Origin: Ceratodon purpureus
Lineage: Eukaryota; Streptophyta; Bryopsida; Pseudoditrichales; Ditrichaceae
Length of the DNA stretch: 64,000 nucleotides
Reading direction: 5' to 3'
NCBI GenBank assembly: GCA_014871385.1
Contig: CM026426.1
Coordinates: 99,341,966 to 99,405,965 of the forward strand
The notes below the pieces were generated by a model. The model searched no databases and was not told the origin of the DNA. It saw nothing but the letters and a program-made list of their open reading frames with translations. Positions within the stretch are counted from its first letter, which is position 1, and each line of letters begins with the position of its first letter. This document shows, piece after piece, positions 36,715 through 60,656 of the stretch. Made by a program: the position numbers and the translations under genes.

Positions 36715-36740
36715 CACTAGAGCAGAACAACATTATGTCC
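36715..36740 (+). repeat. CACTA left terminal inverted repeat
   Basis: CACTAGAGCAGAACAACATT pairs with the right end over CACTAGAG, then A, then AACA, with TGTCC shared slightly further in. Confidence 0.9.
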
Positions 36741-37545
36741 TGCGTTAAACTACGTCATCTGAAACGTAAACCTGGGATTATGGAAATTAGTGTGGAATTG
36801 TGATCCAAAAAAACATATTGCACGTTAAACGTTTTAACGTGCACGCGTCACTTTTGACGGCTTCAGTCAAAGAGTGTCAACTTGAATTTTGAAGTGACGG
36901 TCCACTGTTAACGATAACGCCATGAGACAGGGGCACGTCAACTTAAGCAGAGCTCTGCTTTGTGGAAAGTAACTTTTCTGAAGAGTTTTTTACCTCACGG
37001 TAGTTTAGTGATGGATGAATGTAGTCACATCCCACGTCAGCACGTTTCTTTTAACGTTTCTTTCTGTAGGCTACATCCTAGGGGGTGTCAACAGTGACGC
37101 ACACGTTTTGGATGACATAAAAACGCGTCACACTGCGTTTCAAGAAACATATGGACGTAATTGACGAGTCCCCTATGCATGTAAGCTACGGTTGACGTGG
37201 CGGCTAGGTTTTCACAAGGTCTATGTCCTAGGGGGTGTTAATAGTGACGCGCTCGTTTTTAGTGATGCAAAAACGCGTCTAATTGATGCGTGCGTTAACT
37301 TAAACGTGAGATGCATTTCGGTATGTTTTGATGTGAACGTGTCACTACTGACGTAGTTTGACATTGGACTTGACAGATTGGACGCAGGTTTAACGTGATA
37401 GCGTCACAGTCAACAACGAGATCACGATTATAGGTTTTTTAACGTTCACGCGTCATGGTTAACGTTGCTTAATCATGCATTGCATTGTGGACGTTACTAA
37501 AAACGACAAGTGATGTTCAATAGACGTTGAACTGCGTTACTTGAA
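36740..37545. repeat. CACTA left subterminal repeat zone
   Basis: Dense, both-strand copies of GCGTTA, ACGTTAA, TGACG and ACGCGTCA words, for example CACGCGTCACTTTTGACG (36841-36858) and GTGACGCACACGTTTT. CACTA transposase-partner (TnpA-type) proteins bind subterminal repeats of this kind. Confidence 0.8.
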
Positions 37546-37584
37546 ACAACATGATAAGTCATTTGAGATCAAATCTGTGGAGGG

Positions 37585-38343
37585 TCAATGCTCACTATCT
37601 GATGAATCGCCGAGGAGGTGGTCAGCTCCCTCATCGTCAGTGGCCGCTGCTACGGGACCAACCATGTGCCCTTCTACAAAAGACCCGTTCACTATGAAGT
37701 CCTCTGAATCTGATGCTTCGCGTCTACTGGTCTCTATGTTATTGGCACGTGATGAAATAGGGCCGCTGATCTGTGCATCTGCGTCGTCATCTTCTTCTGC
37801 AGATGCGCGACCTCGACGGCTGCCTCGAACATCAACCTTCCACGGCCCGTCGTCGGTCGCAAAAACCACTTGCTGTGCATGAATGGGAAAAGCAAATGAC
37901 CGGGGACCCAGAGGTGCTCTGTACTGATCTGCAAAGTTGACAGAAAGGAACCCGTGTTCATCCCGCTTCATTGTAGGAGTAGCACCTCCTGTTCTTCCTT
38001 TAACCCATGAACATACAAGAACCACGACGCACGTATGCCTATAGTCTAATTCCAGTATTTCTTCAACATGGCCCACGTACTCTTCTATCTCTGCCCCTCC
38101 ATCATCTGTAAAGGATGCATGCACTCCACTGTCCATGGTGGTGTTTGAAGCTTCGACTGAGCGGCAACGAAAGTGCATGCCATAAGCCTTCATTGATCGA
38201 TACGCGGTTGCATTAAACAACGGAGGCCTCGACAGATCAAACGTGGTTTGGTCGATGCTCCTCGACCCAGTGGCACGGTCGGTGGCAACCGCGGCAGTCA
38301 GCCATTCTGGAAAGGGTGGCAAAGCCCGCAGCTGTGAAGGCAA
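37585..38343 (-). CDS. CACTA transposase gene, DUF4216-type C-terminal exon
   Basis: A 252-codon frame downstream of the transposase exons on the same strand. The core at about residues 80-175 has the DUF4216 pattern: YVGHVEEILELDYRHTCVVVLVCSWV, then a GFLSVNFADQY and an FAFPIHAQQVVFATD segment followed by WKVDV. This module lies C-terminal to DUF4218 in many plant CACTA proteins; its biochemical role is not known. The last ~60 residues are acidic and Ser-rich (EEDDDADAQ). The frame is open to TGA at 37585. Likely the last exon of the TNP2 gene, joined to the exon ending near 38680. Confidence 0.75.
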   Translation of the reverse strand: MPSQLRALPPFPEWLTAAVATDRATGSRSIDQTTFDLSRPPLFNATAYRSMKAYGMHFRCRSVEASNTTMDSGVHASFTDDGGAEIEEYVGHVEEILELDYRHTCVVVLVCSWVKGRTGGATPTMKRDEHGFLSVNFADQYRAPLGPRSFAFPIHAQQVVFATDDGPWKVDVRGSRRGRASAEEDDDADAQISGPISSRANNIETSRREASDSEDFIVNGSFVEGHMVGPVAAATDDEGADHLLGDSSDSEH

Positions 38344-38677
38344 AGCCCGCAGCTCTTCAGAGGGCCTCCGTCTCCTTCAAGAAGGTCTTCCACGATGGCG
38401 CTGGCGACGTAGTGACGACCTAGACTCTTGTTCCACCTCGTACGCTCTGAGGTGGGGAAAATGAAGACATTGTTAGAGCTGTTGCGTTAGATTTAAAGAA
38501 AACAGTGTACACAGTGACACATTCTAACGCATTTGCAGCCATTTTAACGGGTGTTAACACAAATTCTGGTGACGTGAACGTAAACTCATGTTTTTGGCAA
38601 CATTAATTCATTTTTACGGACGTTGACATATGAAGGGGAAAAAAAGCAGAGAAGGGTCACTGCCACAGTTTAAGGTG

Positions 38678-39247
38678 TCACCGTCTGTAGTGCTGAAGTG
38701 AGGCGGCGTTTGTGATTACAAATTTGTGAATCCATTCACGAAGGGTGCGGGACATCACTCGCCTTACTACCTTGCCCTCCACCATTTCATCGTGCATTGC
38801 CTGATCTTCATTTGCGTCCCACACTCTGCGGGATGTAGCGCCATAACGTTCCATATACTCTGAGCAAAATCCAAGTGTTTCTTCCATAGAGTATGCCTCT
38901 GCCATGCAACCCTCGGGCCGAGCATACGAACGCACATAATCCTTGAGGGTCTTCATGTATCTCTCCATTGGATACATCCAACGACTCTGGACTGGGCTGC
39001 ATAGAAATAGCTCCTCCATAAGATGCACAAGAAGGTACGCCATGATGACCATTGAACCTAGAGGGAACTCGCGCTCAATCATACAAACTGTCTCATTTGC
39101 GTCTGCAACCCACTCTTGTTCTTTGGACGGGTTGACTGTGCGACTGCACAAGCACTTAAATATCCTGCTGACTCTCATGATGCAGGTCCGGACTTTGCGA
39201 TTCATATCAACATTCCTTAGTGACACGGGTAGTATCTGCGAATGCAC
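38678..39247 (-). CDS. CACTA transposase gene, DUF4218 exon
   Basis: The text matches the plant DUF4218 pattern: MIEREFPLGSMVIMAYLLVH, LCSPVQSRWMYPMERYM, LKDYVRSYARPEGCMAEAY and GFCSEYMERYG. In CACTA transposases this block directly follows the TNP2 catalytic domain. The first part (LPVSLRNVDMNRKVRTCI) is the usual lead-in. The frame is open. The order with neighbours on the - strand is TNP2, DUF4218, DUF4216, as in full-length CACTA proteins. Confidence 0.85.
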   Translation of the reverse strand: MHSQILPVSLRNVDMNRKVRTCIMRVSRIFKCLCSRTVNPSKEQEWVADANETVCMIEREFPLGSMVIMAYLLVHLMEELFLCSPVQSRWMYPMERYMKTLKDYVRSYARPEGCMAEAYSMEETLGFCSEYMERYGATSRRVWDANEDQAMHDEMVEGKVVRRVMSRTLREWIHKFVITNAASLQHYRR

Positions 39248-39664
39248 CGACAGCGAGTCAAATATGTTTGTCAGAAAGTACGGAGTTAATATTTCGAAAT
39301 CATACTACAAAAAGGACCTACACGACGTCAGATTGTTTTCGTAAGGGTGACAATAGTCTGGACACGTGCTTTGTTGATAACTTGGGGTTATTCCTTGTTT
39401 CCGATAACGTGGACTCCGCGATTCATATCGAGTTTAAAACAACATGAAGCAACATCTTTTACCGTCAACATTACGATACTAATTGTTTCAAGTAACGTTA
39501 CACTGCGTTTCCGAGGAATTTAGCGTAACAGGGCGGAACATGCTCTGACGTTAATTAAAACGTTCCATTGACGAGAAGTAACGTATTGCATGTATATCTA
39601 TAGCTGACACACAATCAATACGTCAACTTAAACATAATAGCAACGTAGAATTGAAATTCGCTTA

Positions 39665-40050
39665 CCTGTTGCATTAGGATGTGAAAGTCATGAGATTTAA
39701 GAAATCTCAATCTTCCTTCGAAAACCCTTTTGTGAATGGCGCCTGCATAATTCTATGGCACCTTCGTCGATCCTATTACAGCTAGCATGTCGTTCTTCGC
39801 TTGTGGTAGGAGAACATAAGGTGCGTGTGGCATGAATAGCCGGCCGTCTGTGCCGTCGGTCTATCTCAACCATAAGTTAGACCTCACTCCCATGTCTTTG
39901 AAGTCCATGCGTCCTCGAGGAAAGTCAGTCTCCCCAAACAGAGTCTTTATTATATTTTCACATAGGTTTTTCTCGCAATGCATGACGTCCAAGGTGTGCC
40001 TGATGAGCAAGTCCTGCACCACACATTGAGGGCCGTGGTCAAAATTCTAT
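39665..40050 (-). pseudogene. CACTA TNP2 transposase exon, C-terminal catalytic part
   Basis: The minus strand reads the conserved TNP2 end: RHTLDVMHCEKNLCENI, GRMDFKDMGVRSNLW, then GRLRFLKSHDFHILMQQ followed by a clean donor (CAG/GTAAG at 39665). The acidic residues of the MHxEKN block belong to the transposase core. TAG stops interrupt the exon at 39861 and 39753, 36 codons apart in the same frame. It continues from the exon at 40228-41180. Confidence 0.82.
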
Positions 40051-40227
40051 AATTTTAAAAATTTCTTTGGAATGCAGAAAGTGACGCGTTGAAGTGACGT
40101 AGGTTGACAGAGTTTAACGGTGTTCTGTGTTTAAGGTGACGGTACTCTATGTCATAGGTTCATGTTGTACATGACATCGTCGTGACGCGGTTTAATAGAG
40201 TTTTACGTTACGCTTTGTCTCGTGCAC

Positions 40228-41187
40228 TTAAACATATTGAGGATTGGAGCAGAAATAAAAAGTGGTAAGCGACATGGCCCAGACCTTCCAATATGGAAGG
40301 GAGTAAAGCGCGGAAATTCTCTTCACCCCGTGCCTCCTCACAGGATCGGCTAGACCGTCTGCCCTGCCACCAGAGGCGATGTAGGCCTCCCTTTCTTGTG
40401 CAAATTGCAGGACATCATTGCCAGTCATGCTTGAACAGGAACAACCGTTCTCTTCAAGACCGTTGAAGCGCATATCGGTACGGAATGCATGGTCCTCTGG
40501 AAGACGTTGGCGTGCACCTACGTACACTATCTTCTGGCCGTTCGGGCCCCTCGCACTGCTGGAAACAATGTTTGGGCCACAAACTGGGCAAGCCTTGTAG
40601 CCCTTGGTTTGTTGTCCAGAGATCAAGCCATACGCGGGGAAATCCAAGATTGTCCACAGTAATAGGCCACGAAGTGTGAAGGACCTCTCTCCACGATCTG
40701 CTGAAGCGTCCACGGCTGGTACGCCTTCCCTAAGGGCATGCAATTCTTCCAGAAGTGGCACCATGAAAACATCTATGTTCTTGTCTGTTGGTGACTCCTT
40801 GCCCGAAATTAAAATGCTCAGCACGATGAAAAAGCGTTTTGTAAGTAACCACGGCAGTAGGTTGTAAATTATCAAAAGAACAGGCCACGTTGAATGTGAC
40901 GTACTACCACCCGAAAAAGGGTTCAGTCCATCAAATGACAGTGCCATGCCGACGTTCCGGTTCTCTGCTTGGAATGTAGGATCTATCACTCCATTGTGTT
41001 TCCAAGCGGGACTGTCGACAACACTCTCCATTGCGATCTCGCCATCCCCGTTCGTGCTCACCCCACGCTGTGAAAGCCACTTCAGAAGCTTTGCAATTGC
41101 TGGAGAGCCAAACATGCGCCTCAACCTTGGAATAAGGGGAAAGTGCCTTACCACCTTCATCGGTGTTGTCTTAGTACCTGCATACAT
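40228..41187 (-). CDS. CACTA TNP2 transposase exon, central catalytic part
   Basis: Classic TNP2 text: HFPLIPRLRRMFGSP, ALSFDGLNPFSGGSTSHSTW (catalytic-region Asp), NLLPWLLTKRFFIVLSILI, PLLEELHALREGV, WTILDFPAYGLISGQ (second Asp) and YKACPVCGPN. The acceptor (TGCAG) is near 41179, so the MYAG start is intronic. The true end is probably near LYSLPYWK, where related proteins run into RHNLDVMH. TNP2 binds the element ends and cuts and rejoins DNA. The frame is open across 300 residues. Confidence 0.9.
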   Translation of the reverse strand: MYAGTKTTPMKVVRHFPLIPRLRRMFGSPAIAKLLKWLSQRGVSTNGDGEIAMESVVDSPAWKHNGVIDPTFQAENRNVGMALSFDGLNPFSGGSTSHSTWPVLLIIYNLLPWLLTKRFFIVLSILISGKESPTDKNIDVFMVPLLEELHALREGVPAVDASADRGERSFTLRGLLLWTILDFPAYGLISGQQTKGYKACPVCGPNIVSSSARGPNGQKIVYVGARQRLPEDHAFRTDMRFNGLEENGCSCSSMTGNDVLQFAQEREAYIASGGRADGLADPVRRHGVKRISALYSLPYWKVWAMSLTTFYFCSNPQYV

Positions 41188-41293
41188 GTACAGAGAAAAC
41201 TACATCACGTTACAGATGGCACAAATTGTGTTACAGGTGACAAACTCTGCGACTAAAGTGACATGAATGCATTCGAGGAAGGGTGACATAAAG

Positions 41294-41425
41294 TGCGTTT
41301 CAGATGACATACAGTGAGTTACTAATGACTTAAATTACGTTTGACATGACATATACTGCGTTACAGATGTAGAATACTGAGTAGCAGGTGACATGGGATG
41401 CGTTACGGATAACACACGTTGACCT
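41294..41425. repeat. Six-unit degenerate tandem of the CACTA motif (20-22 bp)
   Basis: Successive units TGCGTTTCAGATGACATACA.., GAGTTACTAATGACTTAAAT.., CGTTTGACATGACATATACT., CGTTACAGATGTAGAATACT.., and two more lie in the intron between the first two TNP2 exons. Confidence 0.8.
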
Positions 41426-41464
41426 CCATATGACACACAGTGCGCTACAAATGACACACGCTAC

Positions 41465-42332
41465 CTTCTCTGTATCTGCTTTTCCCGCAGCGGGGACATG
41501 ATTCGCAAGCCTCGTGCTCACCACGAAATAGAACACAACCTGCGGGACAAGCATGTATAACATTGTACGCTAGTCCGAGTGCTTGCAGCATTCTCTTCGC
41601 GCTATAGTGCTTTGCAGGCAATACATTTCCTTCTGGTAGAAGCTCCTCTGACAGATAATGAAGTAGCTCAGTTACAAATGCGTTGCTAACCCCGTGCGTC
41701 GTGCACAATGTCATGATGACAACCACTGCTGAAATTAGGCTCACAGTACTACGTGGATACACTGCATGTGATGCCTGCGAGTACAATATCTCCAACGCTT
41801 CCACCGTGCTATCTGCAAAATCTGCCTCATCAGTGTCCCCATTAGTCCTATTCTCGGAATCCTGGGCGATCTCCTGTAACTCTTCAACGGTTCGCAGAGC
41901 GTCCTCAAACTGCTTGTAGACATCGTGGTGGCCAGGCGGATCAGAAATCGTGTCTTCAGGTAGAGGATGCTCAAAAACCTCTTCATCGCGTCCATTACTG
42001 TCGACACTCCACTCCTCATCGCTGTGGTACCATGCTTTGTCCTCCGGGTACCCCTCTGGGGGATCTCCTCCAATCATAGAGCGGTACAGAAATTTGTCAT
42101 GGCCATAAGATTGGAGATGCTTTGTTATTGCGCGCACAGGCAAGCGTCGGCCTCCATGACAGTACGTGCATGGGCATGACCATCTCATTATAGGAACCTC
42201 CCTGCTTGCAGCAAATTGGAGTTCGTGATGGTGAATGATCTCCTCAGTCGACCTCCACTTGCGTTTTCTATTGGGAATCGCCATTTCTGCACAGGAGCCC
42301 CTCTGATAGGTTAGGATGCAGCCTTCGTACAA
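41465..42332 (-). CDS. CACTA TNP2 transposase, N-terminal exon
   Basis: The likely start is the second ATG, at about 42284 (MAIPNRKRKWRST). The CPCTYCHGGRRLPVRAITKHL block is the cysteine/His-containing N-terminal domain of CACTA transposases. An acidic linker follows (DEADFADS). It ends with LSEELLPEGNVLPAKHYSAK, LGLAYNVIHACPAGCVLFRG and CESCPRCGKSRY, the conserved zinc-ribbon-like lead-in to the catalytic domain. The donor follows AGAGAAG at 41465. The frame is open. The gene starts near 42.3 kb and is transcribed leftward. Confidence 0.87.
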
Positions 42333-42732
42333 CTAATGGCGTTCATACGCATGTGTAATTTTATCAAACTACGTTTAAAGTGACAGTACATTGCGTTTTA
42401 GGAGTCGTAACATGCCGTTTAAAGTGATGTAAACAATAACTCTCGGACACAGCAGAGAAAGAGAATATCGCGTTTCTAGGGTGGCCTCAGGACGTCTCAG
42501 TATATGTTACATTGTGTCAAGACACGTTTTCGATGACGCAAAACTACGCCATGAAATATCACGTACTCAAATCATTTATCCATAGAGATATATAGATTTC
42601 CAGGGGTGAGTAGAGGATGCTACAGCTGCTGTTGCTAATGCGTCTCGCTGTTTAAACATTTTGGTAGCCTTCTGACAGCCCATGAGCTGTACTTATTGCT
42701 CCGTCAACATCGAAGTCTAGTCTCTCCCAGCC

Positions 42733-43227
42733 TTAGTGATCTTCAAGACTGATGGCATTTTCTGCACCTTCGGAAGTGGTTGAAGGTGTAGGCAGCGGTG
42801 TACACTTGGGCAACTGCGACGCGTACATCTTTTTGTCCCCAACGGCACCAGCATATGGATTGGAGGAGCTTCGGATTGTTCTTTTAGCAATCGGTTTTGT
42901 CAGTTTTGGCGGCCAACGGGAACTTGAGATCCTAGGGATGTTCCTCGACCTGCGAAGCTCAGAATATGGGCCTCGACGCAAAGGATTCACGGTGTCCATG
43001 TTTTCTGCTTTCTTAATCACAGCCTCTTTCCTTTCAATGGGGATCAGATAGTCATCTAGGTTTAAGAGGATATGGATGACTTCGTACTCTTCAGAACTCG
43101 GAATCCAAACTTCACTCTCCTCTTCTACCATCCCCATACTGCTTGTATCTTGCACACATTTAAGGAACCTCACCGTTTTGTGCTCGCCCATATCTTGAAG
43201 CTTACAAGCTGCGTCAGGTGACCGCAT
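42733..43227 (-). CDS. Hypothetical ORF inside the CACTA element, unrecognised
   Basis: A 164-codon frame lies 400 bp upstream of the transposase N-terminal exon on the same strand. The N-terminal half is mixed with an acidic helical segment (YEVIHILLNLDDYLIPIERK). The C-terminal half is basic and Ser/Pro-rich (RRSRNIPRISSSRWPPKL). There is no recognised domain. The surrounding DNA contains the element's 22-bp motif, so it belongs to the CACTA. It could be a captured gene fragment or a small accessory protein. Confidence 0.4.
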   Translation of the reverse strand: MRSPDAACKLQDMGEHKTVRFLKCVQDTSSMGMVEEESEVWIPSSEEYEVIHILLNLDDYLIPIERKEAVIKKAENMDTVNPLRRGPYSELRRSRNIPRISSSRWPPKLTKPIAKRTIRSSSNPYAGAVGDKKMYASQLPKCTPLPTPSTTSEGAENAISLEDH

Positions 43228-43599
43228 GTGACGCCGTAGTAGATTTTACACTCTGTTAGAATGCGTTTACAATGATGCAGAATAATGACCCCGGCCATGA
43301 CGTGGTCAAATCATATAACCAAGCCTACAATATTCATAACATTGGTAACATGTTCATCCAATGAATTTTGTAATAAGTGGAGAGTGGGGCTGCTATCTGG
43401 ATGCAGGGAGTCCTGTTTGTTTTGGGTGTCCAAAAATCCAGGATCAATGTCCCTAATCCCTGTTTCAAGACAAACTCAGTTCAACAGGGCAGACATCGTA
43501 ATTCAAAGCAATAACATTGGGAGAAACAAGGCAGATGACAAAGATGGCTACTAGGTCCAATGCTCGCAATCAGAATCGATGAACCATTGTGACCACGCT

Positions 43600-46500
43600 A
43601 GTCCATTTTGATGGCTATCAATAGGTCAACATATGCCGTTCTTCTGTTTTATCGCGTTAAACATTACGTTATGTCGCATTATGCATGACAGTTGATCATG
43701 CTCTATCAAGTCAATAATGACGCTACACTGCATTAAACGAGACTTAAATTTGTGTCATAGAAGACAATATAAAGCGTTATATCGCTTTTGTCAAAGACAA
43801 TGCAACAAAGGATGAGAAAATCCCACAGTCCCCGTTTACTGTTGGTCAGCAGAATTCACACCGCGGAGGGTCGTAGGACAGTGAATCGTCTTCTTCTTCC
43901 TCCTGTGCTTGTACAGAACCTCACCTATTTAGTTGTAGACGAGACAGTCAGACAGAGCTATAAAATTACTCTATGGTGATTGAGATATCACGAGTGCACA
44001 TTCCACACGTGCAGAGGACTGTGTGATCAATCCGAGGCACTATACACACGGCATCTGGAATCAAGTGAATAGATTTCATGTACATATGGTACCTGCAATC
44101 AAGTGACTAGATTGCATGCACGTTCCGGTTTCAGTCAATTTTAGAGGCCTGGTACAACTCTAATAGCTAGTTCAGTACGCATTCTTAGACAGTGATGATT
44201 TCTGTTTTGTCCCCTGTACCTCCACTCCAATCACCTTCGAAGCATGCAGTAATATTTTCACGCAAATGAGAGATCATGAGTGACATACAGCAAATCCATA
44301 GGACCTATTTGACCTTGGGCTCCATGCGCCTCTTTCTTTTTTCAGCATTGGGTGCGATGGCACATCACGTACCTCCCAAGAGTTTTACAGAATAGTTGTC
44401 TTAGCTCTGATTGGTTATTTGGCGGAGAACTCGTGCTTCCTCCCTTCTTCAGTTCCGAGAGAGGCTGTTCAGCTTGACTGCTACACTGTTCCGCTGCATT
44501 TCCTCCGTGCTCCGATTTAAGGGACGTGGCCGTGAACTGGAAATAGAGAAACACGAGTTCTTTAGGTGGTTGTCTGAGGTCCACTTGAGACAACTAACAC
44601 ATGGTGTGGAGCTTCCAAATGTCCTAGTCCTTGCTTTTTTTGTTCAATTTACTAACGAGTTCAATTGGAGTGATTTTTGTTACCAGGAGGTGCTGGATCT
44701 AGGGGACGCATCCGGCATCCATTTGGCCGACTTCTTACGTCTCCACCATCACTCCCCAAGCATCCGTAGAGCCTCCCCTGCTGATCCAATTCTCCTCAAC
44801 GATGACACTGTGGAGGATGTCACTGAGGACACCGGAGACTCTCGCCCATGGTCTCACTCATTCAGAACCTCGGACTGTTCTTCTCCGATTGTACGCTTGA
44901 ACACATCGTCTGATGTTTTTTTGAGTGCCAGCCAGGGATCATGTACCGCACCGAACTAGATGTTGGCCGCGAGGTGGGCTCGGTCTGGTATAGCATAGAG
45001 AATCATACGGTTATGTTAGATTACGAGGCATTAGCTTCAGCATCTCAGACTATAGGACTGCCTTTCTGAAAAACTATAATTACGTTCATGTTTTTGTGGT
45101 CGGTAATGTGTTTTCACTTCTGTACTATCCAGTACCTAACGTATTGGCTGTTTTCTCAGTACAACTATGAAACGTAGACAGAGACAGATATATCACTTTG
45201 TCACGCTTCTATTTCTGAGACTTCCTGTTTAGTTTGAGTTCCGTTGAGGCTAATATTTGCGGGAATCGTCTTGATTTATTTACTCAAGCTCCTTTGCTCG
45301 TTTATCCCTTTGGTGTATACCTACGTTACCTCGCGTTTAAATCATGATCATGGAACGTCTTCCATGACAACCGACCACGTTCTGTCACGTTAATAATGAC
45401 GTAACAGCCATTAGGGTTGACTGTATGTCAAGTTACAAATGACATGCGAGTAACAGTTATATTCCGTTAAAAAAGGCAGTACTTGACGCTCTGTGTGATC
45501 AATAACCGAGAACAGTCATAGCTTTCGTGAGAACACTAGAATTTGCTACGATAACAATAGTCATACTTCTGAGTATGAATTACTTTAACAGTGGCTACAC
45601 CTTTTTCTCCGGCGCGTACCTGGCATGTTTGGTCAGGCAACGTTCCTCTTCTTGATTCGCATATTGTAGAGAAAGAGGGCTTTTTCCGCTTCCAGAACCT
45701 GCTAAACAATTTGAAAGTTAGAAGCCATGGTATAATCTCAACACACCTCACTATTGAATGTCTGTCTAGAAGCAGCATGTCTAACAGAATTCCATTAGAA
45801 GAACGTAGCTTGAGAGACATTTTCGAGTTTATGCTTGCAATAACTGAAAGCAATCCTTGGAAATTGAAGATTCACACCTCTATCAAAGCTTGATGAAATA
45901 AATCTCGCGCACGCTCTAATTTCTTCCCTTTATAGCGACCCAGGAACTTATCTACGACATGGAGCAGCGTGCGTTAATATTAGGATCCTTCAACACGTAA
46001 ACAAGTGATGAATTACCTACATCACGTCACCACTGACATTACATTGCGTCACAGTGGACAGTATATGACGTCACAGGAAACATCACAACACGTCTTAAGG
46101 TACATTTCATCACGTTACATATGACATTGGATTACATTGTATCACGTTAAAAATGACAAAAGATCACTTCCACGTGGTCGAGCATTCCTGGATTTAACGC
46201 CGACTCTCACCTCCTTCAATGTCTCACCATAGCCACATCTCGTGCACGCTCTAATTTCTTCCCACCATAGCGACTGAGGTACATAGATACGATAAGGTCA
46301 ACATGAGGATACTTAAATACTTGTACACCTCTCTCTTAAACTTTACATGCATTTTCATAGAACTTCTGCTCCTGCATTACCAACTATATACAGGCTGTTA
46401 CCATGACCATGTCCATGAACTTATCTATGGAAAACGTGACATTTTGAAAACATTAGAGGTAGTAAATTCGACATGCCTACTAGAATACCCTACTAATCCT

Positions 46501-47000
46501 CGTTATGAAAAGCCTCTGGATTATCGGACACGTAGGCGCAAGGCATTGGACGATAAAACATCTCCAAAACATTGTAACACTTAGCATCAACTTCAATCCA
46601 TTGAGGCAGAGTTGGGAACCATTTACATTGACTAACAATAGCGGAGTTACCTTTTTTCTAACCAATTACATTGACTAATTAATTAATTTTGATTACTCAC
46701 ATGTAGGCTATGAAAAGCAAAAGCTCTGTCCACACAACAATTACCAGCCGTTATCAAAGAGCACCGGATATGTTAAATGTTACATAAAAACGCATCACAG
46801 CTGACATTAAATCTCTTCACAGGCGACATTAAATTATGACATAGTTGACATCATATCACATTTCAACAGGTTAAAGATGACAAAATATTATGTTAACATC
46901 CCGGTACAGTGGACAGTATACCATGTTACAGATGACAGGACTTTGCGTCTCTCTAGACAGTATACTCTGTTAGGAAAGAGGTGTGAAAACATAAACGCAC
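43600..47000. other. CACTA central spacer with scattered 22-bp motif copies
   Basis: Apart from the ORF at 44.4-45.0 kb no gene is supported. Runs of the GCGTTAC/TGACAT motif occur at 43.62-43.80, 45.34-45.50, 46.01-46.18 and 46.78-46.97 kb. This region separates two divergent genes and should hold both promoters. Confidence 0.5.
44411..44959 (+). CDS. Hypothetical ORF inside the CACTA element, unrecognised
   Basis: A 182-codon + strand frame. Residues ~55-110 look globular and helical: EIEKHEFFRWLSEVHLRQL, LVLAFFVQFTNEFNWSDF. The rest is Ser/Asp-rich (EDVTEDTGDSRPW). No domain is recognised. It sits between the two divergent transposon genes in a 5-kb spacer and is not similar to CACTA proteins I know. 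Captured host sequence is plausible but unproven. Confidence 0.4.
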   Translation: MVIWRRTRASSLLQFRERLFSLTATLFRCISSVLRFKGRGRELEIEKHEFFRWLSEVHLRQLTHGVELPNVLVLAFFVQFTNEFNWSDFCYQEVLDLGDASGIHLADFLRLHHHSPSIRRASPADPILLNDDTVEDVTEDTGDSRPWSHSFRTSDCSSPIVRLNTSSDVFLSASQGSCTAPN

Positions 47001-50199: not shown

Positions 50200-50213
50200 T
50201 TATCCCCCTTTTA
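50200..50213 (-). other. Polypurine tract of the nested element
   Basis: On the minus strand TAAAAGGGGGATAA precedes the 3' LTR. Confidence 0.6.
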
Positions 50214-50335
50214 GTTTGCATTTGCCCTCAGATGCTCCGGTTTTATGAAGTTAACGGAAAAAAAACTAAGGGTAGCAAAAAATCAAAACGGAAATTCCTA
50301 GTGGTCATACCGGTATTCTGCCCTACCCCCACTAT

Positions 50336-51892: not shown

Positions 51893-51919
51893 TGATACTG
51901 TCTTGACTGTCCCGTTGCC

Positions 51920-52729
51920 TCAAATTATGACCAGATTTCTACCCCAGTCATGATTGACCTTAGCATCAATTAACCAAGGACGACCTAACAGCATACTATA
52001 CTCCTCATTTACTTCTTTATTCTTGATCACAGTTAGTGTAATCAGATAAGGAATGCTATGAATGTGTACCTTCACATTTCTGATTATCCCTACTGGTTCC
52101 ACCACTGTTTGGTCTGCCATCCTCAATCTGTAAGGTGCAGGTTGCAAGTCCTTTAGTCCCAAATGCTTCTGCTCTTCTTCAGTAATGAGATTGACACGAG
52201 ATCCACCATCCAGCAATACCTTGTCCAAGGTCCTGTTGCCAATCTGCACAGTTAACATAGGCAATTCCGTGTCAACATCTACTGCCAAGCTGGGTATTAG
52301 ACGTGGTAGACCTCCATTTCTGTTCATCTGCTCCACCCCAGCCGTTTCTTCTGGACCAGAATCATTACTAGTCGTTAACTCCGGAAACACATAAGCCTTG
52401 ACAATCTCAGTCATATTTGGAGCCATCTCTTGTAGCTAACCCAATGGCACAGTGATTGGACTAGCCAATATCCTCCTGCCCACCAAGTTTGCATAATCCT
52501 GCTCCTGGTCCCCCCTTGTACTGGTTTCTGCAGGTACTCCTGGTCCCTCTTGATCAGTCTTAAAGCTGTAATTGAGGACGTTAGCATCTGGGAATCCTGC
52601 CCACTCACTGTCTTGTATCTCTGCTTCAACCATCTTCTGAGCTTCATGTGAGTGAGCAGTCTTGGTCTGCTCTGCTGCTCTGGCCTCTTGCTCCTCCTTG
52701 AGCTGAATCTCTTTCAGGGCTTCTAGCAT
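51920..52729 (-). pseudogene. Aspartic protease of the nested element (retropepsin-like)
   Basis: The frame begins near 52729, overlapping the end of the gag frame by about 7 bases in a different phase. A Glu-rich lead (LKEEQEARAAEQ) is cut by a TAA at 52436. The protease core follows with KVLLDGGSRVNLITEEEQKH (catalytic Asp preserved), LRMADQTVVEPVGIIRNVKV and SMLLGRPWLIDAKVNHDWG. TGA at 51920 separates it from the coiled-coil ORF in the same frame. Retropepsins cleave gag polyprotein; retention of an intact active site in an element without RT is notable. Confidence 0.88.
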
Positions 52730-55700
52730 AGAATGCTGAGCCGTTCATCCTCCTTCAAGTCTTCCTTGGTCTGGACCTTCCTTGGTTCTGGTTCCTTGGA
52801 CTGGTCTTCAATAGGAGGTAATCCTGCCTTCTGCCCCTGGCTTCTGGTCGTACTAGCCACGTCAATTGGGTCCTCTGGCTCATTGAGCCATTCAATTTCT
52901 ACATTCGTCACATGGTGGTCCTGCTTCTTGGTCGCCTGGTCCTGTTGTGCTCGAAACTGGTCCCATTGTGATTTCACGAGGCAGTTCCAACTCCTGTGCC
53001 CTGATCCACCACACAAATAACAACATTCTGGCTTGTCACCATAACTTCCCTGCTGGCCATTACCTGGTCTTGGATTGGATGGCCTCTAATATCCAGGGGT
53101 GTACACTGCAGCAGGCTTCTATGCAGACACCACATTCACTCCTACTGGTACATCTCCATCTTTCGCAACACCTGGTCCCCTCTGGTTTGCTGGGTTGTAC
53201 CAACAGTCACGATCTTCATGGCCTAGCTTCTTGCATATGCCACAGACTCTCCTAGACGCGTCCTGACCTGGTTCCTTCCTGGTCACAGTCGCTGCCTTAC
53301 TGGTGGTCTTTACCTTCTTGACTTCAATCTTGGTTGGCTTACCACTTGAATCAGTGCAGTTTTCTTCACACCTCAGAGCAGCATCCACCAACTCTGTCTG
53401 GGTCTTGACTGGTGCTACACTGGTCGTAATCTTGATGTACTCCAGTAAACCTGCCCTGAAATTGGTGATCCGAAATCCCTCTCCTGGATCTGACTGCAGA
53501 CACTTGATCAAGGTCATAAACCTGTCATAGTAATCCTGCACCTTCTCCCTGTCTCCTTGCTTAAAAGACTTCAGCTCCCTATACACTGCTTCATCAGTTG
53601 TTTGATTCCGATACCTTCTCCTGTAAGCAGCCTTGACATCCTCCCATGAGCAGTATAGGTGATTCTCTAGAAAATTCTCATACCAGGCACCTACCTTATC
53701 CAGTAGGGTAGTACCCATCAAATTGATGATGACCTGCTCATCTGTTTCTCCGTTATGCCACAGGGTCCGCTCAAACTAACGAATGTGAGCATCAGGATTT
53801 GTACCTTCCTTGTACTTGGAGTAGGTCAGTGGTTTTCTCTGTGCCACACTGACTAGTCCTGATAATGGTGGTATGCCTGGTCTGCCAACTGGTGGGTAAA
53901 CTGGTCTTACCGGCCGTTCAGGGTAACTGCTGGGTGCTGTGGCCACTAGTACGCCAATTCCCACGGGTGGTCTGGTTCCATACATTGTCCCTCCAACTGG
54001 TTCTGCTTATCTTCGGAACCCTGTCCCTACACTCGGCGCTCCTACTCCAATTTCTGCTCCTCCTCCTGGCCAGGCTAGCCTGTGTACTGACTTCGGTGCC
54101 TCTGGCTGGTACAGATCACCAGTCAGGTGATCCACATAAGTTGTTGGTGCTCCTCCTTCTCCCAATGAACCTGCTGGTCTTGACTGGTTAAGGAAGTAGC
54201 TCTCTGCTGGTCCCTGGGGTATAGTAGTCGCTGGAACTGGTACCCCCATCACCTCTGCTGATCTTGCAGGACCAGTTCTTCCACCCTGTACCTCACACTG
54301 TTCATATCCTGGCCATAGACTCCCCTTTTGCTGGGCCTGGAGCTTCTGGCTTTCTTCCCTCAACGCCTCCTGCCACGTGTACAAGGTCGTCTGGCGGGTT
54401 GCTTCTCGTCTCTCCTCCTCATTTTTCTTCTCGTTCTCCAATCTCTGGGCCTCCTACCTCAGGCGCATAGCCTCCTGGCGTAACAGGTCCTGATGTATGG
54501 CCTCTTGCTTCTATGCTGCCTACTTGATCTCTTCCCTCCTTTGAGCCTCCTGCCAGGATCTAAGGGCTTCTTGCCTCTGTCTCTCCTGGACCTGCTCCTC
54601 TATCCTCTTGGTCTCCTGCCATAACCTCATGGCTTCCTTCATTTGAAGTTCTAATCTCATTTTCTGCTCCCAAGCCTCCATTGTTTCTCTGAACCTGGCT
54701 GCTTGGCCTAGTTCCTCCATCTGCCTCCTATAGAGGTCCTCCGTTGCCTGCTGGTTTCTTCTCTCTCTCTCTGCTTGTCTTCTAGCCAGCTGTCGAGCCT
54801 TTAACTCCTCCAGCTGTCTTCTGTCCTCCTCGTCTTCTTCTATCTCCATTCCTTGGAACAGAACTGTCTGCTTCCTGATGGCCTCCTGTCCCTGCGTGTT
54901 GGTCCTGGTCGGGTCTGAAGTGAGTACTGCTTCTCCTGTGACCTTGTCTTCACTCTTGACCTGGTCCAGCTTCTTCTTCAGTGACTCCAGCGTCTCCACC
55001 AAGTCTCCTGGTGTCTGTATTCTAGGTCTTGGTGTATTAGGTCGGTTGGTGCTTCTCCTCTCCTCCTCTTGAAACTGGTTGTACGGTACTGTTGTCTCCA
55101 GTTGAGGATTCCAACTGTGCTGGGTGTCTCCATCGCCAGGTCTTGGAAACTCCCTTCTGCTGGTCCTTGGTGATGGCATTGAGCCATCATACTTCCTGAT
55201 ATCCTCATCCTCCTTCCAGTTCTTGAAACTAGGACCAGGTTCGCCCATAGCCGATCCTGTCCTCCTGCTAATTCCAAGCAGTGTCTCCTGGCTTGAATTT
55301 TCTCCTACCAGGTCCATGTCTATCAAGTCCCCAGTCCCTCCCTTGGCAATGCTCTCCTCAGAGCTAATCTGCCCTTCCATGTTCCTGTCTGTATCAACTG
55401 CTGCCCTCTGCTCCCGGAGCTGGTAACTCGCTAGTCTTGCTGCTGCTTGTCTCATGGCTATTTCGTCCTTATCCCACCCTTGGTAGCATTCCTCCATTGT
55501 AGTGCAGTTACTGCTTCTCCTTCCTGGTACTCCCTGGTAGTGATCTTCTAGTCTGCCTGCTTTTCCAGTAAGCCGAGTCTGCCCCTCCAGGTGATCTCTT
55601 GGGTAGGTGCTGTGGATCTCTCTCCCAGCCCTCCTCTGGTCCCTGCGTGCTAGTCCTTCGTACTCCTGGTACATTCCTTTGCCACCCACTCTGGTCCTAT

Positions 55701-55782
55701 GTGGATCTGTCAGTAGCTTCTGCTCCCACTTGGATTTTTTTTTACTACCTTTAGGTTTTCTAAGTTTCTGCTTATGGACCAC
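52723..55782 (-). pseudogene. Very long gag of the nested element (~1000 codons, many stops)
   Basis: All gag pieces lie in one minus-strand frame from ATG 55782 to 52723: 55782-54520, 54441-54007, 53985-53776, 53721-53119 and 53016-52723. Stops lie at 54520, near 54511 and 54450, and at 54007, 53776 and 53119, mostly TAG. The first ~420 codons are charged, with a coiled coil rich in Gln, Glu and Arg (ELKARQLARRQAERERRNQQ). The capsid domain is at 53.2-53.8 kb (WYENFLENHLYCSWEDVKAA, VQDYYDRFMTLIKCLQ). Two perfect CX2CX4HX4C knuckles follow: CGICKKLGHEDRDC and CYLCGGSGHRSWNC. The N-terminal extension is far longer than a typical plant gag. Confidence 0.85.
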
Positions 55783-55999
55783 GATTTTTACCAGATACTA
55801 CTCGAATACAGTCTTACAAGTCTATCCCTAGAGGTCTGTCCTGGTTTTTCCAGTCCTGCCCCTTTAGCTTTTACTGAATCTAGTCCAGTTTTACACTTTC
55901 CTGGTCCTGTATTCACTGTTTTTCCTAGATTTCGTGATTTACTAGTCCAGTTTCCTTTCCAGACACCTATCACTAGTCCCTAGGTTCCTTTCCTACAGT

Positions 56000-56200
56000 C
56001 ACCCCTGGTATTCGTTTTTACTGCCTTTTTTTTTTTTTTTTACCATAATTTTTTTACTGTTTTTTTTTACCTTACTTTTTTACTACATCATTTTTACCTT
56101 ACTTTTTTACTGTATGATTTTTTTTACCTTACTTTTTACGACTTCATTTTTTACCTTAGTTTTTTACTGCGTCATTTTTTTTTACTGCACATACATTCAA
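56000..56200. repeat. T-rich tandem repeat in the 5' leader of the nested element
   Basis: About six degenerate ~30-bp units of (T)nACCTTACTTTTTTACTG on the + strand, lying between the 5' LTR and gag. The CAGTAAA word also recurs in the LTRs. Confidence 0.7.
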
Positions 56201-56536
56201 CTAGCCAGTAAATCTAATATGTTTTTACTGACTGTTCCATTAGTTTACTGCTGATCATACATTCTGCCTATTGTTCCATGCAGTGCAAAATCAGACTAGT
56301 AACAAAATACTTGCCTCATCATAGATGACTATGCCCCTTTTGCTCTTGGAGCTGCCCTCAACTCCTTTGCTGGAGATCCATCAGCCACATGAGCTCCTCC
56401 GTTCAGCCACTGCTTGAGGCGGAATCTGCCACAGGCCTTCTTCCTTGGTCTGCCAGTGAGCCTGCCTTCCACCAACGTACTGCTGCAGTAGCAGAATCCT
56501 AGCTGGTGCAGCAAAAGCCACATGATCCGAACTGTT

Positions 56537-56549
56537 GCATGGTCGCCAA
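56537..56549 (-). other. Primer-binding site of the nested element
   Basis: On the minus strand TTGGCGACCATGC follows the 5' LTR directly. It is identical to the 13-base core at the same place in the gypsy element at 25865-25879, suggesting a shared primer tRNA and related lineages. Confidence 0.6.
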
Positions 56550-57256
56550 TGTTAAAGGGTGATTTAGCTCACCCTTAGAAAGCTAATTTACTGTCCAAGC
56601 AAAAATGAAAACCCTCAAAATTCTAGTGCCCACCTAGTTCCTACCACTGTAACTGACCTGCTCCTGGACTATACCAGTATACTGGAACTTCTGCCACCTT
56701 AACCCTCATCAATGCAAGTACACACCATACAAATCCACCCCCAAACCCTAACAATCAATGTGCACAAAACCATATGATCAAAAGGTCCCCTTCCATGTCA
56801 GTAATGCTCCCCAAGTACATCCAGTCCTGCCCTCAATCATCCCTGCCCTAGGACAGCAACTAATCTCCTTCTAACTCCAAAACCTAACCTCCATAGCCTA
56901 AACTCCAAGCCTACACTCTGAAAACACACAAGAGAGCTCACTTGAGAGCCCTCAGCCCAAGAGGAAGAGAGAGAGAGTGAGAGCCACAGCCCCCTTCCCT
57001 ACAACCCCATCCAAAACCCTAGCCGCCACCCTAGCCGCCACCAGCCGCCACCAGCCCTAACCCTGGCCGACGTCATCCAACAGCAGTTTTCATCCGTCAG
57101 AAGTTTTCATCCGTCTGGCAGTTTTCATCCAGGAGAGAGTTACTGCTGTCCAGCGCAGTAACTGGCAGTGTACTGCTGCAGTTAACAGCAGTTTTACTGC
57201 CCCCTACAGTTTACTGTTCCTGCTCTTTTAACCTACCAGTAAAATTCCCGTTATCA
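56550..57256 (-). repeat. LTR of the nested element, right copy (5' LTR)
   Basis: From TGTTAAAGGG to CCGTTATCA. Nearly identical to the left copy apart from the 17-bp unit and about ten scattered differences seen by eye. Confidence 0.93.
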
Positions 57257-57435
57257 GGGAGGTAACATGTTTGTGTCTTAGTAAACGTATTTGATCCGTT
57301 CAATGTTACATGTGACACACTACAAACCTTACTAGTGCGGTTTTCTAGGAGCACTGAAATTGACAAAGTGGGAAACTTCTGTGGCAAAGTATAAGACTTG
57401 GACGGCAGCCGTCAGAAGCGGAAGTTGCTGCAGAG

Positions 57436-57678
57436 GTGAAGGCAATGCGTCAGAAAGACTTGGAAGAACGCATAGCTGCAAGGAAGCAGAAGTCTGAAGG
57501 TACTCAGGATGCGAGGATGGAAAAGCTTGAAGCTCTGTGTGCGGCCCAGGAGTCCAGGTTGAAGAAAGTCGAGGACATGATGACGGAGTTACATGCCAAC
57601 ATGACGAGGGTGTCTACTCCACCACTTGTGGAGACCGTGCCGCCCAAACAGAAGGCCTCCAAGAAATCTGGAGCCTGA
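57436..57678 (+). CDS. CACTA second gene, coiled-coil exon
   Basis: The frame encodes a strong coiled coil (KDLEERIAARK, RMEKLEALCAAQESRLKKVEDMMTEL-type heptads) followed by a basic tail (PPKQKASKKSG). It opens upstream near 57420 (EAEVAAEVKAMR). The exon lies just right of the nested LTR element. That element is therefore in an intron between the Transposase_24-like exon (donor 48817) and this one. A coiled coil after the conserved domain is usual in this protein type and probably mediates dimerisation. Confidence 0.6.
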   Translation: MKAMRQKDLEERIAARKQKSEGTQDARMEKLEALCAAQESRLKKVEDMMTELHANMTRVSTPPLVETVPPKQKASKKSGA

Positions 57679-57998
57679 CCCCGGCCTAACCGGACCAGCA
57701 GCAAGGCAGCAGAGGAAGTCGTGGCGCCTCCAAACACTTTGAAGGCTCCCCCGATGCCGCCGGGGACCTAGGATGACATCACAGCAGGGGAGGACGCTGC
57801 CGACCCAAACCTATGCTGACATCAGAGGAGAAATCAGCCACCAAGTCGGATGTCATATCAGCATGTCTTCAGACAACGCAGGATGAGGGGGCTGTCCCGA
57901 CAACGGAGACGATCCACAGCACGGATGCACCCGAGGATATGGTGGAAGATGGGCGCGGGGAAGGTGCCACCACAGAAGAGAGGGGCTGAGAACAGCAT

Positions 57999-58195
57999 GT
58001 GGAGGCGAAGGAGTCGGAGACGGACGACGACGAACATTCTCCAGCTCAAAATCCACGTGACAGTACTTCCGGAGCAGCTGCACCTTTTGGGGAGAAGGTC
58101 TCCTCACCAGAGTCGGACGAGCAGGAGGTCGTCGACACGATTGCAACCCTCTCCATCGAGAAGCCGGCTCCAGATGATGTAGGCACCTCACGTTG
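57999..58195 (+). CDS. CACTA second gene, acidic linker exon
   Basis: A short open frame rich in Asp, Glu and Ser (KESETDDDEHSPAQN, SSPESDEQEVVDT) between the coiled-coil exon and the DUF8039-like exon. It ends near GTAGGCACCTC. Frame choice is uncertain because the + strand has two other open frames here (57850-58182). Confidence 0.35.
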
Positions 58196-58332
58196 TAAAC
58201 GACTACGTAGATCACCCTTTACTTTCCATATTAACTCTGTTACAACTAAGTTAGAAGCTGCGTCATCCTTTTGAACCACTCCCCTCTGCCCGTCTTCTTT
58301 GACAAACATGTGCGTTAAACATGACATGAATT

Positions 58333-58398
58333 TGCGTTTCTTCTGACGTAGAATCGCGTCTTTAATGACTTGAATTTGCGTTTCTAATGACATACGCG
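58333..58398. repeat. Exact three-unit 22-bp tandem of the CACTA motif
   Basis: Units begin at 58333, 58355 and 58377: TGCGTTTCTTCTGACGTAGA.., CGCGTCTTTAATGACTTGAA.., TGCGTTTCTAATGACATACG... All three are exactly 22 bp with GCGT at positions 2-5 and TGAC at positions 12-15. It lies in an intron of the + strand gene. Confidence 0.85.
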
Positions 58399-58469
58399 CA
58401 CGTATCAAGTGACGGTACCAAAACGTAACCATTTGTAAAAGTTAACGTACCTGTGTTCTCGTATGTACA

Positions 58470-59000
58470 TTGTTGGCGTTCCAGAGGACATTCACAAAAG
58501 GAATGGCGGTGGAATTGCTGAGTAGCGCCTATGACGACGCCTTCACCACTTTGGTTGGCTGTGGAGTGCTGCACGGAATGCCAGGGGAGTCGGTCCACTG
58601 CCAGAGAATAGAGGATGACGAGTTCTCCGTGCAGGTGACTATAAGCATTAAGGACGACCACGACCTCCAATGCCCGCTAGAAGATGAAGACGTCCTGACC
58701 ATGAATCAGGCCATCGGGTACTTCATTCGGTGGCCCGCGACCGACCTAAGGCAAGCACCCGGTGACGGGGTAGCGCCGGCACTGGGGACAGTGGGGGCCG
58801 TCGAAGGGATAGTAGTGGCAGTGGGGGCTACTGGTGAAGACCCTTCCCCGCAATTCCAGACCATTTTCAAGTTTCAACACGTGCCGCCTCGAAGAAGCTG
58901 AAGTACCCGCCCCCTAAAAAGAAGGCGCAGTCCAAGCGACCGCAGAGTAAGGACGAATCCGCAAACTCCAAAAAAAGAGTTGCCTCTGAGGCAACACAGG
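58470..59000 (+). CDS. CACTA second gene, DUF8039-like exon and basic tail
   Basis: Residues ~10-95 read GMAVELLSSAYDDAFTTLVG, GVLHGMPGESVHCQRIEDDE, FSVQVTISIKDDHD and MNQAIGYFIRWPATDL. The order (hydrophobic start, V/A-x-G, HG, V-V, P-x-E, AxGxFxxWP) is that of the DUF8039-type domain at the C-terminus of plant CACTA-associated proteins. A low-complexity Gly/Val stretch follows. Text in a shifted frame then gives a lysine-rich tail (SKKLKYPPPKKKAQSKRP), a likely nuclear signal, up to a donor at CACAG/GTAAG (59000). Either an indel or an unseen small intron lies near 58880. Confidence 0.6.
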
Positions 59001-59589
59001 TAAGTGGTCACCCTCGTCTTTTCTCGCACACCTTAGAGGGGGGTTTGAAAAGTGAATTGACCATCATTTTCCATATAGACTGCCCTTTGTATTCGGTTGA
59101 GTTGCAGGTCTCTCTTGGTAAAGCACGGTGTCGCAGGGTTCCCCTACAATCCGAACTGGTCAGTAGATCCCGTTTGGAGGCGTTGACGCAGGCTGTTGCT
59201 TTCCTCTACCCTTGTGATGATGAGTCAATTGTGTATACAGGGAGAAGCTGGGGGTTTGGAGAAGTCAACGGTTGAGAAACCCACAGGACCTGTGAAGTGC
59301 TACAAGAAGGTACGACAGATCTACTCTCTTTTAAAATCCTCAGCCGATCCGATTTCTCATGAGACCTCTAATGCTATGTTCTCTAATTGTTTTGTATATG
59401 ATGTGGATTGTGCAGATTAAGAAGAATCCGGCACAAGAAACCAGCATCACCAACAAATAGACTGTAGCCATTTTCTGTAGGAAGGTGCTCGCTGTCACAA
59501 CGCACAGGTAGCCATTTTGCATAATGCTATAGAATGACTGTCCATTGGAACCTAGCGTACATACTATTGGAACTACTGTGCAGGATCTG

Positions 59590-60640
59590 TACTCATTAGT
59601 GACATTTCAGTCGCGTATCGCAATAAACGTGATTGACTTTGTTATATTGCGTTTCAAGTGACGTTTATGTTTGCGTGAATGTACGTTATATATGACCTTC
59701 GAGCTGCGTCTTGCAAAACCAGTTTTTGCGTCACTTTTGACGTTGTCGTTCAACCTTACAAGTGTTACTGTACGTCACATTGAACGTTGTCCATGCGTCA
59801 ACATGAACATCGTATTCTGTTTCATTTAACAAAAACTTGAAAATGGATGCCTGAAATGGTTGACATTGCCCGTGTCACAGTACGTCTAAAGCCGTCTTAA
59901 TAAACGCATTATTCCCGGTCTATGTGTTTAGCAGCGTCAACTTCGACACTATATTCTGTTTCTTTTGACACAAAATTCTAATTGGGTGCATGAAATGCTA
60001 GTTTTCTCTTTCATAATTCTATGTCTAGAGACGTCCCTGTAAACGCGTTCAACTACTTCCAATATGTTTATCTGCGTCAACCTTGACATAATGCTATATT
60101 TCTTGTGACACACGATTCAAATTGGGTGCATGATCTGCTTGTTTTCTCAAACATAATCCAATGCTTGAAAACGTCTACGTAAACGCGTTCAAATAGGCAT
60201 TGACTGCGTTAAACTGCGTCACATCACGTCAAAGATAACATCCAGTCTCCACCATAAAAACACGTCACACTGCATTTACATTAACAGAGAATGCCGGAAA
60301 TCAAAGATCACGCCACGTGTCACAATCTCGGCCATTGAAAACTTCAGCCAGACTTCTGATTTCCGTGCCATGTCAGCCAATTTTTCATCCATCAGAGACG
60401 CGGGAAATATCCACGTCACCGTCGAAGTTACTTACCCTGGGTAACTTCCATAATTTGTGTTTTGCGTCACTTTTAACATAGCGTCAACTCCTGTTAAACG
60501 GGTTAACATAAGGTTGACGCAGCACGTCAAACCAATGCGACGTCCATGACCTTTTTGCCATTTTTGTGTCACAAAAACTGTCCACATTAAACTGCGTTGA
60601 ACCGCGTTAAAAACCGCGTTAAACGACGTCACTCTGGACA
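59590..60640. repeat. CACTA right subterminal repeat zone
   Basis: About 1 kb with the same GCGTT/TGACG vocabulary. It includes AAACGCGTTCAA at two places, and a ~120-bp segment repeated two to three times near 59.9-60.2 kb (words TGTTTATCTGCGTCAAC, AAATTGGGTGCATGA). Confidence 0.8.
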
Positions 60641-60656
60641 ATGTTTTCCTCTAGTG
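60632..60656 (-). repeat. CACTA right terminal inverted repeat
   Basis: Read inward on the - strand it is CACTAGAGGAAAACATTGTC, the partner of 36715-36740. Confidence 0.9.

Follow-up and report, generated by a model that had tools for sequence, protein, structure and literature searches.

The motif recognized by TnpA of the CACTA transposon En/Spm is subterminal, and Spm TnpA is tied to terminal sites. It is 12 bp long (PMC2613891), and TnpA is described as activating Spm together with demethylation (PMC10398659). The large soybean CACTA elements Tgmt* and TgmR* carry palindromic or stem-loop subterminal repeats whose motif varies by subfamily (PMC2613891, PMC4219821), and in the available text of PMC2613891, PMC4219821 and PMC4158355 the repeats of CACTA elements are either terminal or not discussed. 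The motifs of VANC21 and VANC6 are described as short, family-specific, dense in non-coding DNA including introns, often tandem, and sporadic elsewhere (PMC5735166, PMC10398659). Here we study a CACTA element at 36715-60656 of a 64,000-nucleotide stretch of Ceratodon purpureus (NCBI GenBank assembly GCA_014871385.1, contig CM026426.1, positions 99,341,966 to 99,405,965 of the forward strand; the window), in which a first-pass annotation had noticed a motif recurring throughout the non-coding DNA and had likened this layout to that of VANC targets.

The observation was confirmed and is stronger than that annotation described. The motif is a phased palindromic dyad, and we put at roughly 0.6 the probability that the dyads are family-typical binding sites of a dimeric, element-encoded protein, most likely the second-gene product, which would act in transposition at the ends and in anti-silencing or expression inside. 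Below, W denotes the window copy, S1-S6 its siblings, and B, C and D other families defined by their TNP2 transposase; positions are those of the window.

Form and density of the dyad

De novo expectation-maximization (EM) motif discovery on W without its nested long terminal repeat (LTR) element gave the consensus t.acGTca....tgACgt.a, that is, a palindromic dyad RYGTYW-N4-WRACRY with a constant core GT-N8-AC flanked by RY and YW. All five chosen seeds reached one palindrome, one of them in another register, and of the best 15 among 60 random seeds the first 8 agreed on this palindrome, with a 3-bp periodicity in the remaining 7. The form proposed at first pass, TGCGTTnC-n-ATGACAT, is indeed recurrent but is merely one polar version of this palindrome. 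Words of the type GT-Nk-AC numbered 115 at N8 and 19-33 at each of N4-N7 and N9-N12, the counts at these other gaps being lowered because words overlapping called sites were skipped.

Scanned at a threshold of 8 bits with a symmetric matrix derived from W, the same DNA contained 103 matches vs 8.2 expected under a Markov-1 model; W's own score is inflated by this training, but the siblings, which took no part in it, agree with W (see below). Outside exons detected by homology lay 99 of the 102 non-overlapping sites (10.12/kb in 9.8 kb), vs 0.50/kb in shuffles and 0.32/kb in the flanks (13 sites in 40058 bp). The exons contained the other three in 6.4 kb (0.47/kb), a figure that depends on the mask, because masking any open reading frame (ORF) of 120 aa placed 15 W sites in masked DNA (2.10/kb). 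No site was found in the 7781 bp of the nested LTR element; on this count and that of the flanks we rejected LTR-element or flank background as the source of the motif. Sites occurred in both subterminal zones, the introns of both genes and the central spacer, so that the element-wide spread seen at first pass, the absence from the LTR element and flanks and, with these, the resemblance to VANC target layout were all borne out. Each of the 13 stretches then listed holds sites, together 87 of the 102 by site centre or 91 with an 11-bp tolerance. The supposedly exact 22-bp tandem at 58333-58398 is regular in period but inexact in letters (Tandem Repeats Finder, 58321-58393, 3.3 copies, 69% matches).

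The frame in which these sites lie is a typical CACTA (En/Spm) element, with CACTA terminal inverted repeats (TIRs), a 3-bp target site duplication (TSD), TNP2 and a repeated subterminal motif. W starts with CACTAGAGCAG and ends with CTCTAGTG between AAT/AAT duplications, and TNP2 was recognized by Pfam matches to Transposase_21 (E 1.1e-59) and DUF4218 (E 1e-27), with a DUF4216 match below the Pfam cut-off (E 3.9e-5). Exons are ORF blocks that match between copies, and introns are inferred from them; among splice dinucleotides kept between copies there were too many candidates to fix exon ends. The LTR element is placed on the minus strand from its gag- and protease-like ORFs.

36715-36735, plus strand: left TIR (CACTAGAGCAG...), TSD AAT at 36712-36714
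60636-60656, minus strand: right TIR (CTCTAGTG), TSD AAT at 60657-60659
37585-43245, minus strand: TNP2 transposase gene, from ORF blocks and Pfam, exon ends approximate
37585-38376 (DUF4216, below cut-off), 38678-39304 (DUF4218), 40228-41199 (Transposase_21), 41445-42332 and 42733-43245, minus strand: TNP2 ORF blocks
47681-59275, plus strand: second gene, candidate dyad reader, broken in W, from ORF blocks and comparison between copies
47681-48865, 57364-57678, 57990-58274, 58446-58901 and 58838-59275, plus strand: second-gene blocks
49476-57256, minus strand: nested LTR retroelement in the first intron of the second gene, dyad-free control

The site scan grouped the dyads into the following clusters, to which no strand is assigned.

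36749-37552: left subterminal array, 16 sites
38481-38606: 3 sites, inferred TNP2 intron
39392-39638: 5 sites, inferred TNP2 intron
40124-40180: 2 sites, inferred TNP2 intron
41204-41460: 8 sites, 21-bp spacing, inferred TNP2 intron
42368-42542: 4 sites, inferred TNP2 intron
43260-43806: two clusters (2 + 5 sites), TNP2 5' part / central region
45352-45482: 4 sites, central region
46021-46162: 5 sites, 22-bp spacing, central region
46767-46963: 7 sites, central region
48963-49452: 8 sites, second-gene first intron, 5' of the nested LTR element
57270-57321: 2 sites, second-gene first intron, 3' of the nested LTR element
58287-58494: 8 sites, 22-bp spacing, inferred second-gene intron 2, last site entering the next ORF block
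59612-60644: right subterminal array, 21 sites

Helical phasing and independence of the half-sites

Distances from dyad to dyad in W peaked at 22, 33, 44, 55, 66 bp and onwards with troughs between, and the best period was 10.9 bp (Rayleigh 60.2 vs a maximum of 10.5 among 300 jittered sets). The same period was found in S1, S5 and S6 (Rayleigh 94.0, 48.5 and 90.9, with no null run alongside). Because odd multiples of 11 bp are included, phase is kept beyond what mere 22-bp duplication would give, and the dyads lie on one face of the DNA helix.

Palindromes can also fold, and the dyads might act in introns and ends as RNA or single-strand DNA hairpins, in splicing control or as the stem-loops that are reported for soybean Tgm subterminal repeats (PMC2613891). 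In 108 sites, however, none of five half-site pairs was complementary above shuffles (p 0.26-1.0), and two flanking pairs were slightly so (p 0.027 and 0.039; 11 pairs tested). Variation on one side of a half-site pair is thus independent of the other side, a pattern that a protein dimer would give and a hairpin would not; moreover, helical phasing is a property of double-stranded DNA. We therefore rejected hairpins, the least probable of the alternatives weighed here.

The dyads have a weak polarity, with CGT on the left and ACA on the right: CGT..ACA vs TGT..ACG counts were 27:10 in W, 47:17 in S1, 27:15 in S5 and 19:11 in S6, significant in W and S1 and not in S5 and S6. In W this polarity is present on the TNP2 side and at the right end despite the opposite directions of the genes.

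Conservation of the dyad core between sibling copies

TIRs beginning CACTA were found at both ends of W and S1-S4, and all five of these two-ended copies have 3-bp TSDs (W AAT, S1 GTC, S2 TCT, S3 AGA, S4 TGT); S5 and S6 have a single visible end each. Outside exons, dyad density was 10.2-10.4/kb in S1, S2 and S3, 7.9/kb in S5, whose stretch perhaps includes some flank, and 6.2/kb in S4, which is 6.8 kb longer and contains insertions, and exons of S1-S5 were at background level (0.50-0.64/kb). The TNP2 introns and central region of S1, with the ends left out, returned the same palindrome by EM. When EM was given just the second-gene side of S5, poly-T came out first, and after masking a palindrome with the same core was outscored by other simple sequence.

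Between W and S1 the six core positions were identical at 0.941 and the ten outer and spacer positions at 0.828 (bootstrap confidence interval (CI) of the difference 0.080-0.148), and between W and S5 at 0.861 and 0.706 (0.112-0.196). Split by compartment, core/spacer identities from W to S1 were 0.929/0.750 at the left end, 0.897/0.734 in TNP2 introns, 0.939/0.823 in the central region and 0.982/0.921 at the right end, and for W to S5 the difference excluded zero in all five compartments. GT-N8-AC cores were the best conserved of all gaps in W to S5 and S5 to W, and in W to S1 N7 (0.942, n=22) equalled N8 (0.943). Alignments at the S5 level may be drawn by the motif itself, and W to S1 (87% identity) is the safer comparison.

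The second gene has a dS of 0.27-1.46 over six blocks among the W/S1, S5 and S6 lineages, mostly 0.5-1.0. At dS 0.39-0.83 from W, S6 still yielded the same palindrome de novo from its non-coding DNA, with 64 sites outside detected exons (9.15/kb) vs one inside, which counts against sharing by descent alone. The dyads might have been shared among siblings by descent with no conservation of the motif, but the slower change of the core and the S6 palindrome did not bear this out; judged from these alignments, the dyad core is kept by selection above its spacer.

The same data bear on the possibility that the arrays are a neutral by-product of tandem repetition inherited by descent. Tandems of 22 bp do exist, and neighbouring units are slightly more alike, but conservation is position-specific, exons are at background, the spacing includes odd multiples of 11 bp and the dyads persist at high dS. 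We rejected simple descent and neutral tandems on the core-spacer contrast and the persistence in S6, and regard this explanation as very improbable.

Identity of W to S1 is only 0.60-0.76 at 42215-45215 vs 0.88-0.96 in the next 3 kb, as if a segment had been exchanged. S5 (loci L020-L021) is a mosaic: against S1 it has a dS of 0.09-0.32 in its TNP2 half and 0.75-1.07 in its second-gene half, with 0.27 in the last block, as if two gene modules swap between lineages.

Genome occurrences and short derivatives

The exact motif 16-mer TGCGTCACTTTTGACG occurs 55 times genome-wide and its backward control 0 times. Of the 25 places examined among these 55, counting the window, 24 fell within alignments to W, S1 or S5; the exception, L031, is 133 bp away from one, and its locus carries 26 dyads.

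Three short copies derived by deletion (2407, 2324 and 3254 bp), each between perfect 3-bp duplications, align to W solely at its two ends and carry 29, 29 and 27 sites (8.3-12.5 sites/kb). That these short copies moved with dense end arrays alone shows that end arrays go with mobility and that intron arrays are not needed for it. This fits a reading in which the dyads serve transposition alone by TnpA-like end synapsis, intron and central copies being passive spill-over, and CACTA elements are known for subterminal repeats (PMC2613891). But in the central region and in TNP2 introns the dyad cores have changed less than their spacers from W to S1 and from W to S5, and S6, despite its dS from W, retains both density and phase. 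Because intron arrays are dispensable for mobility, something else must account for why longer copies conserve them, and we consider transposition as the sole role unlikely.

Self-regulation, with the dyads as sites of an element-encoded repressor or as a means of target immunity or of transposase titration by copy number, would equally produce a dense, family-typical, element-wide array, as would any self-recognition. The sequence offers nothing to tell it from anti-silencing, and we give it a small chance, distinctly below even.

Dyads in other TNP2 families

A genome search with TNP2 gave at least 126 matches at E <= 1e-20, with identities down to ~50% (124 of 2129 first-look candidates scored). 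One 10-kb stretch per identity band was taken for B, C and D (TNP2 core 78%, 52% and 49%), in which element ends were not located. After masking of ORFs and simple sequence, EM gave the dyads acGTta....taACgt in B, gAtGTct....agACaTc in C and atgaCta....taGtcat in D, with eight bases between the innermost core letters as in W. In unmasked stretches EM ranked low-information motifs highest; the palindrome followed them in B and was not among the EM motifs listed for C and D. Converging pairs of half-site words, chosen from the EM result, peaked at this eight-base geometry (W 12/31, B 11/28, C 10/23, D 6/14). Matrices retrained on 20 shuffles each gave fewer sites at their maximum than the real stretches (B 45 vs 22, C 43 vs 19, D 22 vs 14), and in a free EM search the scores were 89 and 96 ll/kb for B and C vs maxima of 38 and 27 in 8 shuffles, which had fewer starts, and 40 vs 31.5 for D, whose best motif there matched the dyad form only loosely.

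With their own matrices W, B, C and D had 9.31, 10.54, 10.92 and 4.63 non-coding sites/kb. The W matrix found 10.09/kb in B, 5.08 in C and 0.74 in D, and the D matrix found 0.44-0.51 in the others; by these cross-matches W and B are one code, C is related and D is separate. Phasing was present in B (34.4 vs 11.2 in 100 jittered sets) and weaker in C (22.7 vs 17.7). The dyad of C also occurs inside ORFs of >=120 aa (3.13/kb), perhaps because the mask takes in chance ORFs. Overall, a core kept by selection and letters that differ in some families suggest that a family labels its own elements for a protein which those elements encode.

The dyads could instead be host transcription factor sites used as enhancers. 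TGACG/CGTCA is enriched, and the TGACG in the half-site is a bZIP-like word. In bZIP sites the halves adjoin, but here they converge over a 4-bp spacer, their letters vary between families to the point of being almost orthogonal in D, and a nested TNP2-like element lacks them. We judge host factors improbable.

That nested element is 10.3 kb long (L030, L035, L036; C6:23.78-23.80 Mb), has a TNP2-like ORF whose match to window 40228-41199 covers 206 residues at 42% identity, and carries long TIRs around GTGCAAAAA[T/C]AGGTCTCCAAAAGGCCGTGTAAGC in place of CACTA. Its W-dyad density is 0.19/kb. No palindrome was the best EM motif in this element, in part of the left flank or in the LTR element, where a C-rich simple-sequence motif had a higher score per kb (114.8). 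Dyads as a general property of TNP2-type DNA were rejected on the density in the nested TNP2-like element and the lack of a palindrome among its EM motifs.

Near 77% identity the TNP2 matches include many stop-free family-B ORFs of 607 aa with near-equal scores on many contigs, which suggests that family B underwent a recent burst.

The second gene as candidate reader

In W the second gene is broken: it has a frameshift and two premature stops, and its first intron holds the LTR element. Any reader for W would thus come in trans from siblings, some of which are open over the same blocks, the part over which openness was read. The gene is under purifying selection, with dN/dS 0.04-0.51 in five blocks and 0.43-0.92 in the last. 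As the gene of this CACTA element that does not encode the transposase, and one under such selection, it is a plausible best candidate for the dyad reader. Dyad letters that vary between TNP2 families while the geometry stays lend this role indirect support. One protein search, in a database of uncertain plant coverage, gave no homologue, and Pfam and homologue searches gave no relative of VANC or of TnpA/TNP1/ORF2, no comparison aimed at VANC having been made. For one 150-residue part, no DNA-binding fold was found from PDB sequences, and its low-confidence model (mean pLDDT 66.8) had no Foldseek match at E <= 0.001. The B stretch has a 40% match over 110 residues to the first block; the C and D stretches have TNP2 matches and no second-gene block match at E <= 1e-3, and may end before the gene.

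CpG content

In non-coding DNA of the element the observed/expected (o/e) CpG ratio was 0.98, or 0.84 once the motifs were masked; the left flank had 0.72 and the LTR element 0.27. Undepleted CpG fits a low past methylation of the element. Within it the LTR element stands out in strong local contrast: between 50 and 57 kb its o/e per kilobase is 0.20-0.34, and that of the surrounding CACTA element is 0.67-1.15.

Interpretation

We propose that the reader would be the element's own protein, most likely the second-gene product, by position the counterpart of TnpA/ORF2, and that its dimers would bind cooperatively along one face of the DNA. The end arrays would serve transposition, because short mobile derivatives keep them, and the internal arrays of autonomous copies would mark element genes against silencing or set their expression, in a VANC-like manner.

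Several results weigh against this proposal. The dyads are dense, but to say that they fill the non-coding DNA, as at first pass, is too strong, since several central stretches with no detected exon are site-free or nearly so (e.g. 43.81-44.81, 45.48-46.02 and 46.96-47.68 kb); undetected exons or promoters may lie there. Outside the core, neighbouring 22-bp units resemble each other somewhat more than units far apart do (0.386 vs 0.302), so local duplication contributed to the arrays. The core-spacer difference has a CI including zero in W to S1 second-gene introns (0.964/0.921), and it includes zero in S1 to S5 TNP2 introns and in the S5 to W central region; from S1 to S5, N8 (0.837) is no better conserved than N5 (0.830) and N7 (0.845). 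The evidence from B, C and D is one copy per family, the dyads of B and W cross-match and those of C partly match W, and D, alone well separated, has the weakest motif and no phase lattice (Rayleigh 2.0). The second-gene blocks have no Pfam match above cut-off and no recognized DNA-binding domain. Finally, high CpG may merely reflect youth, and some flank kilobases are equally high (0.9-1.1).

A bolder version is that the CACTA families here independently evolved a VANC-like self-marking code, each with its own dyads in a shared geometry, phased at least in W, B and C, in which a second-gene dimer would coat and shield the element and code and reader would drift together into separate control of W/B, C and D. 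We regard this as tentative, at about one chance in three. If true, whole-transposon sequence-specific self-marking extends beyond Arabidopsis VANDAL and arose in the CACTA superfamily too. Diverged families in one genome, with a common geometry and partly different half-sites, would moreover make protein-DNA co-evolution directly testable.

Comparison with known systems

A literature search, in which subscription journals were thinly covered, gave no report of element-wide motifs in CACTA introns. Like En/Spm, the present element is a CACTA element with a second gene and a repeated subterminal motif; unlike the 12-bp subterminal motif of En/Spm, its dyads are element-wide, palindromic and phased. 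The available text places the repeats of Tgmt* and TgmR* at the borders (159 and 732 bp in Tgmt*) and does not describe them in introns, whereas here introns carry them too. The layout is also like that of VANDAL21 with VANC21 and VANDAL6 with VANC6 as described, namely a dense family motif in non-coding DNA and a second gene beside the transposase. Family specificity of the VANC type is clear for D, partial for C and not seen for B vs W. The VANDAL motif is described as a 9-bp YAGTATTAY in one orientation in elements with a MULE transposase, whereas here a phased, N4-spaced palindrome of weak polarity accompanies TNP2.

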